Below, one piece after another: positions 34,476 through 41,424 of a DNA stretch of 41,424 bases; the stretch's first letter is position 1, and each line of letters starts with the position of its first letter. Source of the DNA: Desulfurellales bacterium (GTDB taxonomy: Bacteria; Campylobacterota_A; Desulfurellia; Desulfurellales; Hippeaceae); NCBI GenBank assembly GCA_027035575.1, contig JALVUQ010000048.1:84958-126381 (forward strand). Reading direction: 5' to 3'. The notes beneath the pieces are model-generated. The model was not told the origin of the DNA. It did no database searches and saw only the letters and a list, made by a program, of their open reading frames with translations. The translations under genes and the position numbers were made by a program.

Positions 34476-35246
34476 CTATTTAAATAGGTTGTTGATTATG
34501 CGAATTGCCGAAAAAATGACAATTGAGGTTATAATCATAATAACGGTAACCGGAACGGCATACGACAAACCGAAAGAGTTAAACCTGTCGTAAATCATAA
34601 CCGGTGCTGTCATAGGATGATATGCTATAATTACTACGGCGCCGAACTCTCCAATGCCGCGCCCCCACATCATCAATGCTCCGTTGATTATCTCTTTTCT
34701 TGCATAGGGCAGTGTTATTTTGACAAACGTCCAAAAAGAGTTGGCGCCGAGCGTTTTTGACACATTCTCAAGCCTAACGTCAACTTTTTTAAAGCCTTCT
34801 TTTGCCGAATTTATCAAAAACGGAGCAGAAACAAACATCATAGCTACCAAAATACCGAATTTCGTATCCAAAAACTCCACACCTATTTTTTTAAACGCCA
34901 CCCCCAACTCACCGCTTGCTCCAAACACCATCAACAGGGCTATACCGGCAGCGACATGCGGAACCATAACGGGTATGTCTATTATTCCCTCTACAATAGC
35001 CTTGCAGCAGAAATTGTGGCGCGATAGGAAATAAGCCAAAGGAACCCCTGTTGCAAGCACGATAACGGTTGCATAAAAAGAGACCTCAACGGTAAGTATT
35101 ATGGAGTTTAAAATGGCTCTATCCGACAAAGCCGAAATCAAATTTGAAACGGATGTGCTCGTTATGATTTTGACTACAGGTATGGCAAGAAACAAAAAAA
35201 TACCCAAAGAAAAAATGATTGTTAAAAATTTAAACAACCTTTCCAT
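34476..35246 (-). CDS. Molybdate/tungstate ABC transporter permease
   Basis: This 256-residue inner-membrane protein has about six helices and the BPD_transp_1 (ModB/WtpB/TupB) permease signature including the EAA-type loop 'VSKTLGANSFWTFVKITLP'. 'MMWGRGIGEFGAVVIIAYHP' is the conserved segment around the gate and is typical of molybdate and tungstate permeases. I start at ATG 35246 with AGGAG ten bases upstream, overlapping the ATPase stop region; ATG 35279 lies inside the ATPase gene. It is the last gene of the transporter operon. Confidence 0.9.
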   Translation of the reverse strand: MERLFKFLTIIFSLGIFLFLAIPVVKIITSTSVSNLISALSDRAILNSIILTVEVSFYATVIVLATGVPLAYFLSRHNFCCKAIVEGIIDIPVMVPHVAAGIALLMVFGASGELGVAFKKIGVEFLDTKFGILVAMMFVSAPFLINSAKEGFKKVDVRLENVSKTLGANSFWTFVKITLPYARKEIINGALMMWGRGIGEFGAVVIIAYHPMTAPVMIYDRFNSFGLSYAVPVTVIMIITSIVIFSAIRIINNLFK

Positions 35247-35247
35247 T

Positions 35248-36216
35248 TTAATCAAACTCCTGAATATCTTTTTTATCAAATCCTATATAGAGATTTTTAC
35301 TTTCCAAAAAATCGGTTTTTGCAGAGTTAATCGATACTATGCAGTTGTTGAGCAAAACCTTTATTCTGTAATGATTTTGAATTTTAAAAACGTTGTCAAG
35401 CTCAACTTTAAACGTAAATTCTTTGTTGGGTACTTTGTCGGATATTGCTATATCTTGAGGTTTGACGGAAAAAAATTTGTGCTGTTTTAAATCTATTAAC
35501 TTTGAAGGCAGAATGTTTTTAAACCCTAAGAATTCGGCAACTTTTTTACTGTTCGGATGTTCAAACAGCTCGCACATCGGACTGTCCTGATGTATTTTGC
35601 CCTCAAGCAGCACAATACCTCTGTCTGAAAAAAACATAGCCTCTTTGAAGTTGTGGGTCACATACAGAACGGTTAGCTCGTATCGTTTGTGGAGGTCTTT
35701 TAAAAATTCCATAAACGACAATTTAAATGTTAAATCAACGGCATTTAACGGCTCGTCGAGCAACAGCAGCTTGGGATTGCTCAAAAGAGCCCTTGCAACT
35801 GCAACTTTCTGTTTTTCTCCCCCCGAGAGGTTTTTAACACTCCTTTGCAGAATATTCGATATACCCAAAAACGACACCACCTCATCAAACATCCTTTTGC
35901 TGTTTTCATTTTTATGAAAAAATAGCGAGTAGAGGATATTCTTTTTGACGTTCATATTCTCAAACAGCATATAGTCTTGATAGACCATCCCTATCGCTCG
36001 TTTTTGAGGCGGAAGTTTTGCTATGTCGGTGCCGTCAAGCCAAATCTCACCTTCCGTTTTGTGAAAACCGGCTATTGATTCGAGCAGAACCGTTTTTCCG
36101 CTTCCGCTTCTGCCGATAACGGATAAAAATTCACCTTTTTCAATGTTTATATTTAAGTTTTTAAGTTCAAATACGCCTACTTTTGTTGTGAGGCTCTTAA
36201 TTTCAACAAAGCTCAT
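35248..36216 (-). CDS. Molybdate/tungstate ABC transporter ATP-binding protein
   Basis: This 322-residue ATPase has Walker A 'IGRSGSGKTVLLES', Q-loop 'VYQDYMLFENM', signature 'LSGGEKQKVAVARALL', Walker B 'KLLLLDEPLNAVD' and the H-loop 'YVTHNFKEAMFFSD'. The C-terminal 80 residues form a small TOBE/mop-like regulatory domain as in ModC/WtpC, where oxyanion can inhibit transport. Its ATG overlaps the binding-protein stop by 4 bp (ATGA). The order here is binding protein, ATPase, permease, which differs from the archaeal wtpABC order. Confidence 0.9.
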   Translation of the reverse strand: MSFVEIKSLTTKVGVFELKNLNINIEKGEFLSVIGRSGSGKTVLLESIAGFHKTEGEIWLDGTDIAKLPPQKRAIGMVYQDYMLFENMNVKKNILYSLFFHKNENSKRMFDEVVSFLGISNILQRSVKNLSGGEKQKVAVARALLSNPKLLLLDEPLNAVDLTFKLSFMEFLKDLHKRYELTVLYVTHNFKEAMFFSDRGIVLLEGKIHQDSPMCELFEHPNSKKVAEFLGFKNILPSKLIDLKQHKFFSVKPQDIAISDKVPNKEFTFKVELDNVFKIQNHYRIKVLLNNCIVSINSAKTDFLESKNLYIGFDKKDIQEFD

Positions 36217-37178
36217 TGTAATATTGACGCATCACCTGTGATTACAGGCGGATTTATAACGCCCTGACCGCACTCTTTCATTATTCTTTGTCCCTCTTTT
36301 GATAAAACGAATTTTACGAATAGTTTGGCTCCTGTCTTGTCGATAGGAGAATTTGCATTTTGAGGTATGGTTATGCCGTAAACCATAGGTGCACCTCTTT
36401 TAACAATGAAGCTGCCGGGTGTTTTGCCCGTAACTTTAAAAAATACCGTTTTGTATAGCTTTGAATATTTTTTATCGGCAAGGGAAATTTGCGGAGGTAA
36501 AGATATGTATCTCAAATGGTGTTGAACGGCAACCGATTTGTATAAGAAGATGTAGTCTATGTTATGCGTTTTAAGTAGGGCAAGCAAATCTGTTTCTTTA
36601 GGTCTTACTATAACCTTGCCCTTTTTTTCCATTCCTATCTTATAGTAGTTTGGATAGCCGAACAGTTTTTTAAAAAATCCCTTTAAACGGTAGTATTTTT
36701 CGGCAAGTTTAGCAACAAGCATCGCCCTGTAGCCGCAAGGGTCGTCGTTCGGGTTGGAATGTCCTACAATGACACCCTTTTTAAGCAGTATGTCAAACCA
36801 GTTTTTTGCATTGATTACATCGGCATATTTTGATTGTTTTGTAAACACTACAGCCATTGAGTTTGTTGCAAACAGTGCGTTGAATCTTGCGTTGTTTGTG
36901 TTTATAAGCAGATTATTAATGACAGAGTAATCTGCGGATGCCATAACATCGCAAGGTATGTGCAAATCGGCTATTTTTCTTGCAGCCATTCTTGAGCCGC
37001 TTGCCTCTCGCACAACAGTGTAGTTGGCATATTTTTTCTCAAACGCTTTTGCCATTTTTGCAAAAGGAACCGAAAGGCTGCCGGCGTGAAAAATGACGAT
37101 TTTCTTTTTTGCATACGATGGTGAAATTAAAAAAAGGCTTAAAAAGAACGCATAGATAAACAGCTTAACGTTTTTCAT
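36213..37178 (-). CDS. wtpA: Tungstate/molybdate-binding protein (WtpA-like)
   Basis: This 321-residue periplasmic receptor has a signal peptide (about residues 1-23, basic start then 'LFIYAFFLSLFLISPSYA') and the WtpA-type mature protein: 'VIFHAGSLSVPFAKMAKAF', 'REASGSRMAARKIADLH', 'VMASADYSVI' and 'GHSNPNDDPCGYRA', which is the ligand loop of WtpA rather than of E. coli ModA. WtpA proteins bind tungstate very tightly and molybdate as well. It is preceded by the ModE-like regulator with a 14-bp overlap. Confidence 0.9.
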   Translation of the reverse strand: MKNVKLFIYAFFLSLFLISPSYAKKKIVIFHAGSLSVPFAKMAKAFEKKYANYTVVREASGSRMAARKIADLHIPCDVMASADYSVINNLLINTNNARFNALFATNSMAVVFTKQSKYADVINAKNWFDILLKKGVIVGHSNPNDDPCGYRAMLVAKLAEKYYRLKGFFKKLFGYPNYYKIGMEKKGKVIVRPKETDLLALLKTHNIDYIFLYKSVAVQHHLRYISLPPQISLADKKYSKLYKTVFFKVTGKTPGSFIVKRGAPMVYGITIPQNANSPIDKTGAKLFVKFVLSKEGQRIMKECGQGVINPPVITGDASILQ

Positions 37179-37938
37179 ACTTTTTTATACTCCTTTTAGG
37201 TTTTTCAAATGTTCTGTCGGCATAAAACATCTCCATAAATTTCATATCGGCAAACTCCTCTATCTCCTTTTCAAGCTTTTTAAATTTGCGTATAAACTCT
37301 TTAGCCTCGTCCGTTATGATGCTTCCGCCGCTGTTTCTTCCCTTTGTTGCAATGACGTACTGCTTATTGGTGTTGTTTTCAAGGGTTCTTATGTGGCTCC
37401 ATATCTTCTTGTAGCTAACCCCAAGCTCTCTTGCTGCTGCTGCTATAGAGCCTTTTTTATCTATCAACTCCAGTATCTCGGCTTTACCTTTTCCCATAAC
37501 AATCCCCACATCTTTATTCTCAAACCACAACTTTGTTTTGACCTTTAATCTCAATCTTTTTTTCTCTCTAAAGCAGCCCAAAAGGCAGTAGATAACATCA
37601 ATATCGCTGTTTTTTATTGTTGAGCGCACTTTAAAAATGCCGTACTCTTTTGCAGCATTTAAGGCATCGAAACACTTGATTCTGTTGTTCGGGTCGGTAT
37701 ATTTTTTCAGCGCATCGTAAACCTTTTGATTGAACTGCCCTGTTTTTCTTGCCCCGAACTGCGCCAATTCGCAATTTTCTATTTTATAACCCGAACGCGA
37801 TGCGGTTTTGCCTACTTTTTCAGGGTCTATGTTTAACGCTTTTGCTATGCCGAGAGCTTTTGAACAATTAATTCTTCCGCGCTTATCGCTATACTTTGAT
37901 AGCAGGTTTTTAACCTTGTCATCCGTGACTTTATCCAT
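37165..37938 (-). CDS. ModE-like transcriptional regulator with duplicated N-terminal Cys domain
   Basis: The 257-residue protein carries a LysR/ModE-type winged helix at its C-terminal half (about residues 145-250): 'GKAEILELIDKKGSIAAAAREL', 'VSYKKIWSHIRTLEN', where the pattern matches the ModE DNA-binding domain, and the wing 'TKGRNSGGSIITDEAKEF'. In front lie two related units of about 55 residues (about 8-62 and 75-123). Each has the pattern 'I-x-C-x-x-A-L-x-x-A' and ends in 'C-x-L-x-x-F', giving cysteines near residues 25, 56, 89 and 118. Usual ModE has two C-terminal mop-like domains that bind molybdate; those are missing. It likely controls the operon it leads. No Shine-Dalgarno is apparent before ATG 37938. 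Confidence 0.82.
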   Translation of the reverse strand: MDKVTDDKVKNLLSKYSDKRGRINCSKALGIAKALNIDPEKVGKTASRSGYKIENCELAQFGARKTGQFNQKVYDALKKYTDPNNRIKCFDALNAAKEYGIFKVRSTIKNSDIDVIYCLLGCFREKKRLRLKVKTKLWFENKDVGIVMGKGKAEILELIDKKGSIAAAARELGVSYKKIWSHIRTLENNTNKQYVIATKGRNSGGSIITDEAKEFIRKFKKLEKEIEEFADMKFMEMFYADRTFEKPKRSIKKYEKR

Positions 37939-38054
37939 ACGATAAAATATGATTTTTTTGCATATTTTTCAAGATAAAAATATTTCGACCGTACGTGTAT
38001 GCCCGAAAGGTAAGTTTATGTATGTTTAAAGCGTTTTTTGTATTTTATGCGCTT

Positions 38055-39803
38055 TTATTCTGCTGCTATTTTGTTTTTTCCTGCCTGTTTTGCTTTGTAC
38101 AGTCTCTCGTCACACAAACATACCATATAGTTCATATTTTTAGGTATGTCTTCCGTTGAGGAAATGCCTCCGCTTATGGTGCAGCCAATCTCGTTTTCAT
38201 CGAAATGCACTTTCATTTTATTGACCGCTTGCCTAATTCTTTCTGCAATCATATATGCACTCTCTTTGTTTGTGCTGGGCAGAATAATCAAAAATTCCTC
38301 GCCACCGTATCTAATCGGAATATCAATAGAGCGTATGCTCTGCTTTATGATTTTTGCAATGTTTCTTAGAACGTCGTCTCCCGCGGAATGTCCGTATGTA
38401 TCGTTGACGTTTTTAAAATCGTCTATATCGAGCATTATCAAAGAAAGATTGTGTTTAAAACGCACAGCTCTTGCAAACTCCTGTTCGGAAATAAGCTGCA
38501 AATATCTGCGGTTAAACAAGCCTGTTAATGGGTCTTTTATTGTTTCTTCATACAGTTTTTTGTTCTTGTATTCCAGATTAAACAGATGCTTTTGATTCAA
38601 AACAGCCATAGAAACAGGTATTTCGAACTTGCTCATAACCTCAAGGTAGCTGGTTAAATCGTTGATATTGTTATAGTTGAAGGCTATAAAACAAACACCG
38701 TGATACTTGTCTTTTTTGTCTTTTATCGGAAATGCGTAGGAAGACTCCCTTATATTAAACATATTATGCAAAGAGGAGGAGTTGTAAAAAACTCCGCCGT
38801 TTTTCAGATAATAAGATGCGTTTAACATATTTCTTGTTTTTGTTTTATCTTCGATTAACCTGATATGCTTTTCTTCGGAGTCCATAACTATTACGTTTTC
38901 TTCGTCGTCATCGGCAACGTAAGCCCTTATGTACTCTATTGAGTAGAACTTGCCGAGAATTGTCATTATGGTGTCTATAACCTTAAAAAAGTTTTCATCG
39001 TAGGCAATGATGTTTATTATCTCATTCAAAGCCGTGTTTAGCTCTGAAAGCGTTATAATCTCCCGTGTATCAACATAGTCTCCGAACAGACCGCACTTTA
39101 GCTTTCTTAAATTTTCGATAATTGGTTTAATATGCTCTTTTTTTATGATTGAACCGTGTTGAGGAGCTATTAAATTGATAGGGCTGTGCTGCTCGATTTT
39201 GTCAAGCCCGTAATTCAATATAACGTTGCTTGGCATATAGTGTTCGTGAAACGGTTTGATGCTTTTTAAACAACTTTCCACATCCTTTGAGAAAAGTTCA
39301 AAATCGTCTGTAAATCCTCCGAAAATATCGCTTGAAAACAGTATTTTTGTTTTTTTGTCAAATGTGCAAAAAGCGCCCGGAAAATGCATATAGGGTGTAA
39401 ATATAAAGTTGAGCTTTTTATCGCCTGCTTTCAGTTTCCATCCGTTTTTTTCAACCTCGTACAGCTGTATATCCCAATTGTAGTGTTTAAGCAGCGCCCA
39501 GGCTCTCCAGTGGGTTACGATATATTTGTCTTTTGAGTCTATTTCATCCAGTATATCGTACATACATCCGACAATATCCGGGTCTTGGTGGTGACATATA
39601 AAATATTTTATATCGTTTAAATCAACAAGCTGTGTTATTTTTTTTCTTATATGCTCATATGTAATTCTTGAACCGGGGTCGATAAGTATTGATTCGTCTT
39701 TGTTCTTTATAAGATAAACGTGGCACTGAAACGGGTCGTTCTCTATTTTATGCCCGACCCAATAGGTATCCTCGGCTAATTCAATAGGTTTATCTATTGC
39801 CAT
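38055..39803 (-). CDS. ODP (di-iron metallo-beta-lactamase) domain - GAF-like - GGDEF diguanylate cyclase
   Basis: This 582-residue soluble sensor cyclase has three parts. Residues 1-245 form a flavodiiron-type metallo-beta-lactamase domain with likely iron ligands H72, D74 and D76 ('HHQDPDIVG'), H140 ('YMHFPGAF'), D159 ('SSDIFGGF') and H216 ('APQHGS'), as in the oxygen-sensing ODP family. Residues 265-410 look like a GAF-type sensor domain. Residues 420-582 are a GGDEF domain with 'DPLTGLFNRR', 'DIDDFKNVNDTYGH' and active-site 'YGGEEF' (500-504). R491 and D494, five residues before GGEEF, form an RxxD inhibitory site. It should make c-di-GMP in response to O2 or a related ligand. GAGGAAAAA precedes the ATG; it overlaps the desulfidase gene by 14 bp. 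Confidence 0.88.
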   Translation of the reverse strand: MAIDKPIELAEDTYWVGHKIENDPFQCHVYLIKNKDESILIDPGSRITYEHIRKKITQLVDLNDIKYFICHHQDPDIVGCMYDILDEIDSKDKYIVTHWRAWALLKHYNWDIQLYEVEKNGWKLKAGDKKLNFIFTPYMHFPGAFCTFDKKTKILFSSDIFGGFTDDFELFSKDVESCLKSIKPFHEHYMPSNVILNYGLDKIEQHSPINLIAPQHGSIIKKEHIKPIIENLRKLKCGLFGDYVDTREIITLSELNTALNEIINIIAYDENFFKVIDTIMTILGKFYSIEYIRAYVADDDEENVIVMDSEEKHIRLIEDKTKTRNMLNASYYLKNGGVFYNSSSLHNMFNIRESSYAFPIKDKKDKYHGVCFIAFNYNNINDLTSYLEVMSKFEIPVSMAVLNQKHLFNLEYKNKKLYEETIKDPLTGLFNRRYLQLISEQEFARAVRFKHNLSLIMLDIDDFKNVNDTYGHSAGDDVLRNIAKIIKQSIRSIDIPIRYGGEEFLIILPSTNKESAYMIAERIRQAVNKMKVHFDENEIGCTISGGISSTEDIPKNMNYMVCLCDERLYKAKQAGKNKIAAE

Positions 39804-40977
39804 TTTTTCCTCTCAATATTTCAATAGTCCTCATATCGAACATACCGAACGCCTCTTTGTATCTTTCGAGGTTTTTTATCGTGTCGTAAAATGTTTTTCC
39901 AAGCATACCGTCTTTGTAGTCAACGGTTGCCCCGCGTTTTGCAAACTCTATGCTTAAATAAGCTCCTTCAACCGCATTTGCGGCTTTCATAGCGCAGCTT
40001 CTTTTTGCACCGTCGCAGATAACACCGCCGTTTGCCACGATATAGTTATTAAAAGCGTTTTCAAACAAGGATAAGTTGTCGTCGATATAGAGTATTGCCG
40101 CCAAAACCCCAACCCCGGCAGCATGAATTGCACCGCATACTGAAGATATAAAACCAAGCCGAGATGTTATTAGAGATGTAACAAAGCAGGAGAGCAGAGC
40201 GGCTTTTGTTGTTTTCTCCTTTTCTGCATTTTTAGCCTGAGCATATTCAAGAGGGGCTATTATTGCGGTTAACCCTTTATTGCCGCTTCCGGCGCAGCTT
40301 GCAACTCTAATCTTATCGCCTTTCATTCTTGCATAAACGCTGCTAAAGACAGAATCATCGTCGTAGAGGCTTTTTTCCGCCGCCAAGATATTGGTTTTAA
40401 TGGCTTCTTCCATTTTTTGTCTCAAACTGCTGTCCTGATACATCTTATCGACATACTCAGGCCATTTATCAACATCGTAAAACTCCTTCTCAAAACATAC
40501 GGACTGCTCTTTGGATATCTCTTTATTTACTTTCATATCGTCGTTCAGTGATACGCAGACGATATTTGTATGGGAGTGTTCCGTAACGGCAACCGCCTTA
40601 TCACCGTCTTTATAAGCCGTTGTTTTTATGAACATATCGTTTTTGTCAACAACATTGATTTCAACTGTGTCGTATAGTTTTTTGGCCTTGTCTATAATTT
40701 CATTGTCCAGTTCGTTGAATATCTCAAGCTCATTTTCCGTATTTGCTATTAGATACCCATAAAGCAGGGCAAAAGTAACGCCTAAATTGTCCTGAGAGTT
40801 TGGAATTCCCGCCCTGTATGCGTTTTTAAATGTCATTTTATCAATCTCAAGAGATATTTTTTCTGCATTTTGTAAATATTTGCCGACATATGCGGCATTT
40901 AGGGCGATTGCAGCAGGCTCGGTGCAGCCTTGAGTGAACTGAATCATCTTTTTCATCGTTTTACACAAATAAAACAT
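39790..40977 (-). CDS. L-cysteine desulfidase family protein (CyuA/UPF0597)
   Basis: This 395-residue protein belongs to the serine dehydratase alpha-chain-like/L-cysteine desulfidase family, which uses a [4Fe-4S] cluster to turn cysteine into pyruvate, ammonia and sulfide. Conserved blocks are 'QGCTEPAAIALNAAY', 'RVASCAGSGNKGLTAI', 'SSVCGAIHAAGVGVLAAI' and 'VICDGAKRSCAMKAANAV', whose cysteines are the cluster ligand candidates. The start is uncertain: ATG 40977 is close behind a run of seven G, and ATG 40956 and 40947 are alternatives without a Shine-Dalgarno. Its stop overlaps the ODP-GGDEF start by 14 bp, so the two are probably co-expressed. Confidence 0.87.
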   Translation of the reverse strand: MFYLCKTMKKMIQFTQGCTEPAAIALNAAYVGKYLQNAEKISLEIDKMTFKNAYRAGIPNSQDNLGVTFALLYGYLIANTENELEIFNELDNEIIDKAKKLYDTVEINVVDKNDMFIKTTAYKDGDKAVAVTEHSHTNIVCVSLNDDMKVNKEISKEQSVCFEKEFYDVDKWPEYVDKMYQDSSLRQKMEEAIKTNILAAEKSLYDDDSVFSSVYARMKGDKIRVASCAGSGNKGLTAIIAPLEYAQAKNAEKEKTTKAALLSCFVTSLITSRLGFISSVCGAIHAAGVGVLAAILYIDDNLSLFENAFNNYIVANGGVICDGAKRSCAMKAANAVEGAYLSIEFAKRGATVDYKDGMLGKTFYDTIKNLERYKEAFGMFDMRTIEILRGKNGNR

Positions 40978-41174
40978 AACCCCCCCGTAAAATAAGAATT
41001 TAATTATTAAAACACTATAAAGAAAAAACCGTTTTCTTGCAACATTTTGTTGTCTTGCAAGGGATATTTGTAAAGAAGTCTCATTTAATTGTATATGGCT
41101 GTGATTATCAATATAATTTCACCTCACTTCCACCGAATTCTTGCCAATTCATTGAAAAAATAGTATTTTTTGAT

Positions 41175-41424
41175 ATGGAATTTAAGTTAATCGATCTTTA
41201 TGCGGATACCGTCGAAGCGTCAAGTAAACAAAAAGGTGCTTACATATTGATAATTTTTGTGGAGAAAAATAAAAAAATTTCGATAGGTAAGTTGGGAGAT
41301 ATGGTGTTTAGAAAGGGATGCTATGCCTATGTGGGCTCTGCTATGGGAGGCTTGTCGAAAAGAATTAAAGTTCATATCAATAAAAACAGGAAACCGAGGT
41401 GGCACATAGACTACCTGCTTAAAG
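41175..41424 (+). CDS. GIY-YIG nuclease-superfamily (DUF123) protein, 3' truncated by window
   Basis: The visible 83 residues carry 'KGAYILIIFVEKNKKISIGKLG', split here by 'ISI', and 'KGCYAYVGSAMGGLSKRIK', then 'RWHIDYLL'. This is the DUF123 version of the GIY-YIG nuclease fold, also found fused to endonuclease III-like proteins. The start ATG 41175 has no clear Shine-Dalgarno and the frame is open upstream, so an earlier start is possible. The rest lies outside the window. Confidence 0.78.
   Translation, partial: MEFKLIDLYADTVEASSKQKGAYILIIFVEKNKKISIGKLGDMVFRKGCYAYVGSAMGGLSKRIKVHINKNRKPRWHIDYLLK

Follow-up and report, generated by a model that had tools for sequence, protein, structure and literature searches.

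A predicted soluble ODP-GAF-GGDEF diguanylate cyclase with a di-iron sensor domain and a non-conserved cysteine desulfidase neighbour in a Desulfurellales genome

The window, that is the whole stretch of 41,424 nucleotides analysed here, is the end of a contig in a 1.72-Mb genome whose closest named relatives are Desulfurellaceae/Desulfurellales MAGs (the best at 94% protein identity). On its minus strand it encodes a 582-aa protein with an ODP domain, a GAF-fold domain and a GGDEF domain. We consider it probable that this protein works as a soluble, self-contained diguanylate cyclase with a di-iron sensor, driven by its ODP domain and independent of the overlapping L-cysteine desulfidase gene cyuA. 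From the ODP domain, O2 or the redox state is its most likely signal. The desulfidase is most likely an incidental neighbour, because in relatives the sensor gene stands by itself or at a distance from cyuA.

Results

Domain architecture of the sensor protein

In the 582-aa protein, Pfam placed an ODP domain (PF19583, E=2.8e-61; 207 bits against a curated cut-off of 27.2) and a GGDEF domain (PF00990, E=4.3e-47), at the positions listed in Table 1. No hemerythrin domain was matched in this protein, the sensor domain being ODP. The predicted model matched solved ODPs (TM by target 0.80-0.84) as well as GGDEF cyclases, and the nearest solved structures to its ODP part were the ODPs of T. maritima and T. 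denticola. The region between the two domains gave no Pfam match to GAF; nevertheless, when it was modelled by itself (pLDDT 84, pTM 0.82) and used in Foldseek, 37 matches were obtained at E<=0.001, nearly all of them GAF-bearing proteins, which assigns a GAF fold on the predicted structure. The label "GAF-like" given in an earlier note on this DNA was thus well chosen, and the architecture of ODP, GAF-like region and GGEEF domain with RxxD that it had read is borne out by Pfam, fold and residue alignment.

Table 1. Positions in the window of the sensor gene, the desulfidase gene and their parts
Feature	Position	Strand	Basis
ODP-GAF-GGDEF diguanylate cyclase (predicted), 582 aa	38055..39803	-	ORF reading of the window; Pfam, predicted fold, structure matches
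ODP domain, residues 25-217	39153..39731	-	Pfam; structure match to 6qrq/6qwo/6r9n/6qnm
C27-H28 of ODP domain	39720..39725	-	clade comparison
HQDPD motif, residues 72-76 (ligands H72, D74, D76)	39576..39590	-	alignment with solved ODPs and homologues
Di-iron ligand position H140	39384..39386	-	alignment
Di-iron ligand position D159	39327..39329	-	alignment
Di-iron ligand position H216	39156..39158	-	alignment
GAF-fold domain, about residues 246-391	38631..39068	-	predicted fold and Foldseek
Long linker helix into GGDEF, residues 394-422 (29 residues)	38538..38624	-	predicted model
GGDEF domain, residues 423-578	38070..38537	-	Pfam
RxxD inhibitory site, R491-S-I-D494	38322..38333	-	homologue alignment
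GGEEF active-site motif, residues 500-504	38292..38306	-	sequence and homologue alignment
CyuA-type L-cysteine desulfidase, 395 aa	39790..40977	-	Pfam, structure-sequence match, cysteine alignment
14-bp overlap of cyuA and sensor genes	39790..39803	-	ORF coordinates

Di-iron ligand positions and cyclase motifs are conserved

H72, D74, D76, H140, D159 and H216 line up with the ligands of solved ODPs and are identical in all 23 of 23 ODP-GGDEF homologues, so that the six likely ligand positions noticed earlier are indeed all present. The cyclase part is equally well preserved: GG[ED]EF occurs in 23/23 homologues and RxxD in 22/23, the metal-binding aspartates D459 and D461 are invariant, and the 582-aa protein itself has both the GGEEF motif and the intact RxxD site claimed for it before. 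Comparison of the sensor gene with that of a second genome of the family (G002) gave a dN/dS of about 0.04 overall, low in every domain, showing purifying selection.

GAF domains are common regulators of cyclases, and within the genus the middle region shows strong conservation (dN 0.015), as might be expected if sensing fell mainly to the GAF domain and the ODP domain had a structural role. However, homologues from several phyla keep all six ligand positions unchanged, whereas their middle regions have diverged or become shorter, and we give this possibility very little credence. An ODP-driven sensor remains our preferred reading. The ODP domain would bind iron and react with O2 or another oxidant, the GAF domain and the long helix would relay the resulting change, and the GGDEF dimer would respond with altered c-di-GMP synthesis, with product feedback at the RxxD site limiting the output. 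The overlapping cyuA would then encode an independent cysteine-degrading enzyme that the sensor does not need.

A Cys-His signature distinguishes the cyclase-fused ODPs

When a tree was built from ODP-type domains, those fused to cyclases and one broken spirochaete copy clustered apart from the chemotaxis ODPs, with a support of 93/91 that lies under the starred level of the tree. All members of this clade have F-Q-C-H at residues 25-28, and C27-H28, invariant among them, is missing from the chemotaxis ODPs and flavodiiron proteins that were compared: the same position reads Q[TVA]NQ in 12 chemotaxis-type ODPs and YN[SA]Y in flavodiiron proteins. The second shell also differs between chemotaxis ODPs and the clade. 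Given that both C27-H28 and the second shell differ, the ligand may differ from that of the chemotaxis ODPs.

The ODP domain could sense another small ligand (NO, the iron level, sulfide or persulfide), its site being tuned by C27-H28. ODP is homologous to the NO/O2-reducing flavodiiron proteins and has been described as a sensor of iron as well as of O2, and the Cys-His pair is confined to the clade; on the other hand, the di-iron site is the same as in O2-binding ODPs, and we regard another ligand as a minor possibility beside O2 or redox. It is improbable that the clade as a whole, marked by the invariant Cys-His pair, forms a di-iron sensor class of its own, one that responds to sulfide, persulfide or another thiol-reactive signal and thereby controls c-di-GMP in anaerobes with a sulfur metabolism.

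The overlapping gene encodes a predicted L-cysteine desulfidase

The 395-aa product of the upstream gene is predicted to be a CyuA-type [4Fe-4S] L-cysteine desulfidase, in line with the iron-sulfur enzyme proposed for it from the start. Enzymes of this type break L-cysteine down into pyruvate, ammonia and sulfide. Pfam returned only the general serine-dehydratase alpha family for this protein, and a match to solved L-cysteine desulfidases extends across its full length (9he0, E=4e-32). C281, C321 and C328 align with the cluster ligands Cys287, Cys329 and Cys336 of M. maripaludis CyuA, and the N-terminal CTE motif (C18-T19-E20, the Cys/Glu base region) is invariant in 8/8 sequences. The protein shares these cysteines, the CTE motif and similarity over its whole length with the CyuA proteins of M. 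maripaludis (9he0/9fsl) and E. coli.

Both ORFs lie on the minus strand and their 14-bp overlap was confirmed, with a Shine-Dalgarno-like GAGAGG stretch ahead of the start of the second gene, that of the sensor. Overlaps are frequent here, with 13 of 32 same-strand neighbours in the window overlapping (a base rate computed from the window and two short stretches), and the wtpA and ModE-like genes in the window also share exactly 14 bp. The cyuA-sensor overlap therefore supports co-transcription and not shared function, and this base rate led us to reject it as a sign of a functional link. The two genes are probably co-transcribed in the genus of the window and its nearest relatives. Scans for promoters and terminators matched no more often than in shuffled sequence, and no Rfam elements were found at 37000-41424. 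Directly downstream of the sensor gene (34476-37938) lie a gene for a ModE-like regulator and then a tungstate-type WtpA/WtpC/WtpB transporter operon.

The gene pair is not conserved within the family

The earlier note had coupled the cyclase to the desulfidase, and the gene pair was followed through the family. Of 15 family genomes, just three (G000, G002 and G004) have an intact, adjacent pair, with cyuA directly upstream of the sensor gene. In a further genome (G007) the sensor, 72% identical, sits behind a cyuA remnant of 133 aa (L144:1498-1887) that retains residues 1-79 plus 353-395. This in-frame loss of about 270 codons takes all three cluster cysteines and leaves the 14-bp overlap with the sensor gene in place; no second desulfidase copy was found in this genome, and the remnant might conceivably stem from misassembly of the MAG.

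Both genes are present but unlinked in eight family genomes (G008-G015). In seven of them (G008, G009 and G011-G015) the sensor gene follows rsfS at the end of an operon of ribosomal-protein, proline and NAD genes. In genus g5 the operon ahead of it reads rplU-rpmA-obgE-proB-maoC-proA-nadD-rsfS by Pfam; this content ruled out a hydrogenase maturation operon, guessed from gene sizes. In G010 the sensor is preceded by a gene with a PA14 domain. The single-contig genome G009 has its sensor split into frames of 410 aa and 147 aa by a stop or frameshift (L151:8917-10657); this is probably a decaying copy, and the split suggests that the sensor is dispensable there. As for the remaining genomes, G003 holds only a contig-edge fragment of the sensor, after a PAS-GAF-GGDEF-EAL gene, the single-contig genome G006 has cyuA and no sensor, cyuA of G001 stands at a contig end with its neighbour beyond the edge, and neither gene was found in G005.

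In genus g5, cyuA stands in a string with a VIT-family gene before it and a dCache_2 chemoreceptor gene after it, in 4/4 genomes read (L155:8107-11942, L156:6814-10572, L157 and L158), and one of the VIT-family copies has a weak rubrerythrin match. This string is a better conserved link between desulfidase and signalling than the pair in the window.

The sensor occurs without a desulfidase match in a second phylum

The sensor was also found in 14 of 136 genomes of a second phylum, most copies measuring 543-578 aa, and cyuA was matched in 0/14 of these genomes by a query that does find the Desulfurellaceae copies, a positive control. The neighbours of the sensor mostly vary between genomes in the ten second-phylum loci read. 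In one of these genomes (G191, L223:4703-7154) it follows genes resembling rlmH and rsfS by eye; the nearness to rsfS, as in genus g5, is probably a coincidence. No cyuA lies in the flanks read beside the spirochaete and Deferribacteres homologues, and no plasmid homologue was found at E<=1e-40.

These results bear on a joint module in which released sulfide, or the oxygen sensitivity of both proteins, would set c-di-GMP. The genes are adjacent, overlapping and likely co-transcribed in three genomes, and the family of the host is sulfur-reducing. Nevertheless, the genes are unlinked in eight family genomes, one genome keeps the sensor beside a desulfidase remnant, another has the desulfidase without the sensor, 14 genomes of the second phylum have the sensor without a desulfidase match, and overlaps are common in the window. 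Functional coupling is rejected on this gene-order evidence, and we judge such a module very improbable. The earlier proposal that c-di-GMP is tuned to sulfide made from cysteine finds no support in a pair that is not conserved; its other half, tuning to oxygen or redox, stays the best inference from the ODP domain.

Discussion

ODPs have been reported as iron- and oxygen-binding sensors in chemotaxis, and the solved examples include a peroxy-diiron form (6r9n). The chemotaxis ODPs of T. denticola (TDE2498) and T. maritima (6qnm, 6r9n, 6qrq, 6qwo) have the same fold as the sensor domain described here and the same HQDPD...H...D...H ligands. They differ from it in that they stand alone, paired with a chemoreceptor, whereas the ODP of the present protein is fused to GAF-GGDEF, and in their QTNQ-type sequence, replaced by FQCH in the ODP-cyclase clade. 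The genome of the window (G000, contig C79, L162:7790-9479) also has a stand-alone ODP gene 4 bp upstream of a gene for a sensorless soluble chemoreceptor of 300 aa, a pair that resembles the T. denticola ODP and TDE2496.

According to the summary in PMC7319448, Muok et al. (2019) have already reported ODPs fused to signal-transduction domains as a group, and these likewise join ODP to a signalling output. No characterised ODP cyclase and no biochemistry of one was found in the literature searched, and a 2022 census of c-di-GMP sensors does not mention ODP. The closest functional likeness is to Bhr-DGC, the hemerythrin cyclase of V. cholerae, in which a soluble non-heme di-iron sensor domain also directly controls GGDEF; its sensor is a hemerythrin four-helix bundle with no GAF mentioned, in contrast to the metallo-beta-lactamase fold plus GAF of the protein described here. 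The diferrous form of Bhr-DGC is 10 times more active than the diferric form. By analogy with this cyclase, whose fold is unrelated, it is slightly more likely that the reduced diferrous form of the ODP cyclase would be the active one and that c-di-GMP would drop upon exposure to O2.

The surroundings of the desulfidase gene differ as well: cyuA of E. coli lies with the gene of a cysteine importer (PMC9040844), and cyuA of the window adjoins the cyclase. Unlike E. coli cyuA, that of genus g5 adjoins VIT-type and chemoreceptor genes. The window also offers a caution, since overlapping genes in a compact genome hinted at a link between sulfide and signalling that relatives did not confirm.

If the cyclase proves responsive to O2, it would be the first characterised cyclase of the ODP type within the literature searched, and ODP would be a second, unrelated di-iron fold governing c-di-GMP besides hemerythrin. 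It would also show how anaerobic sulfur bacteria link oxygen exposure to attachment or motility.
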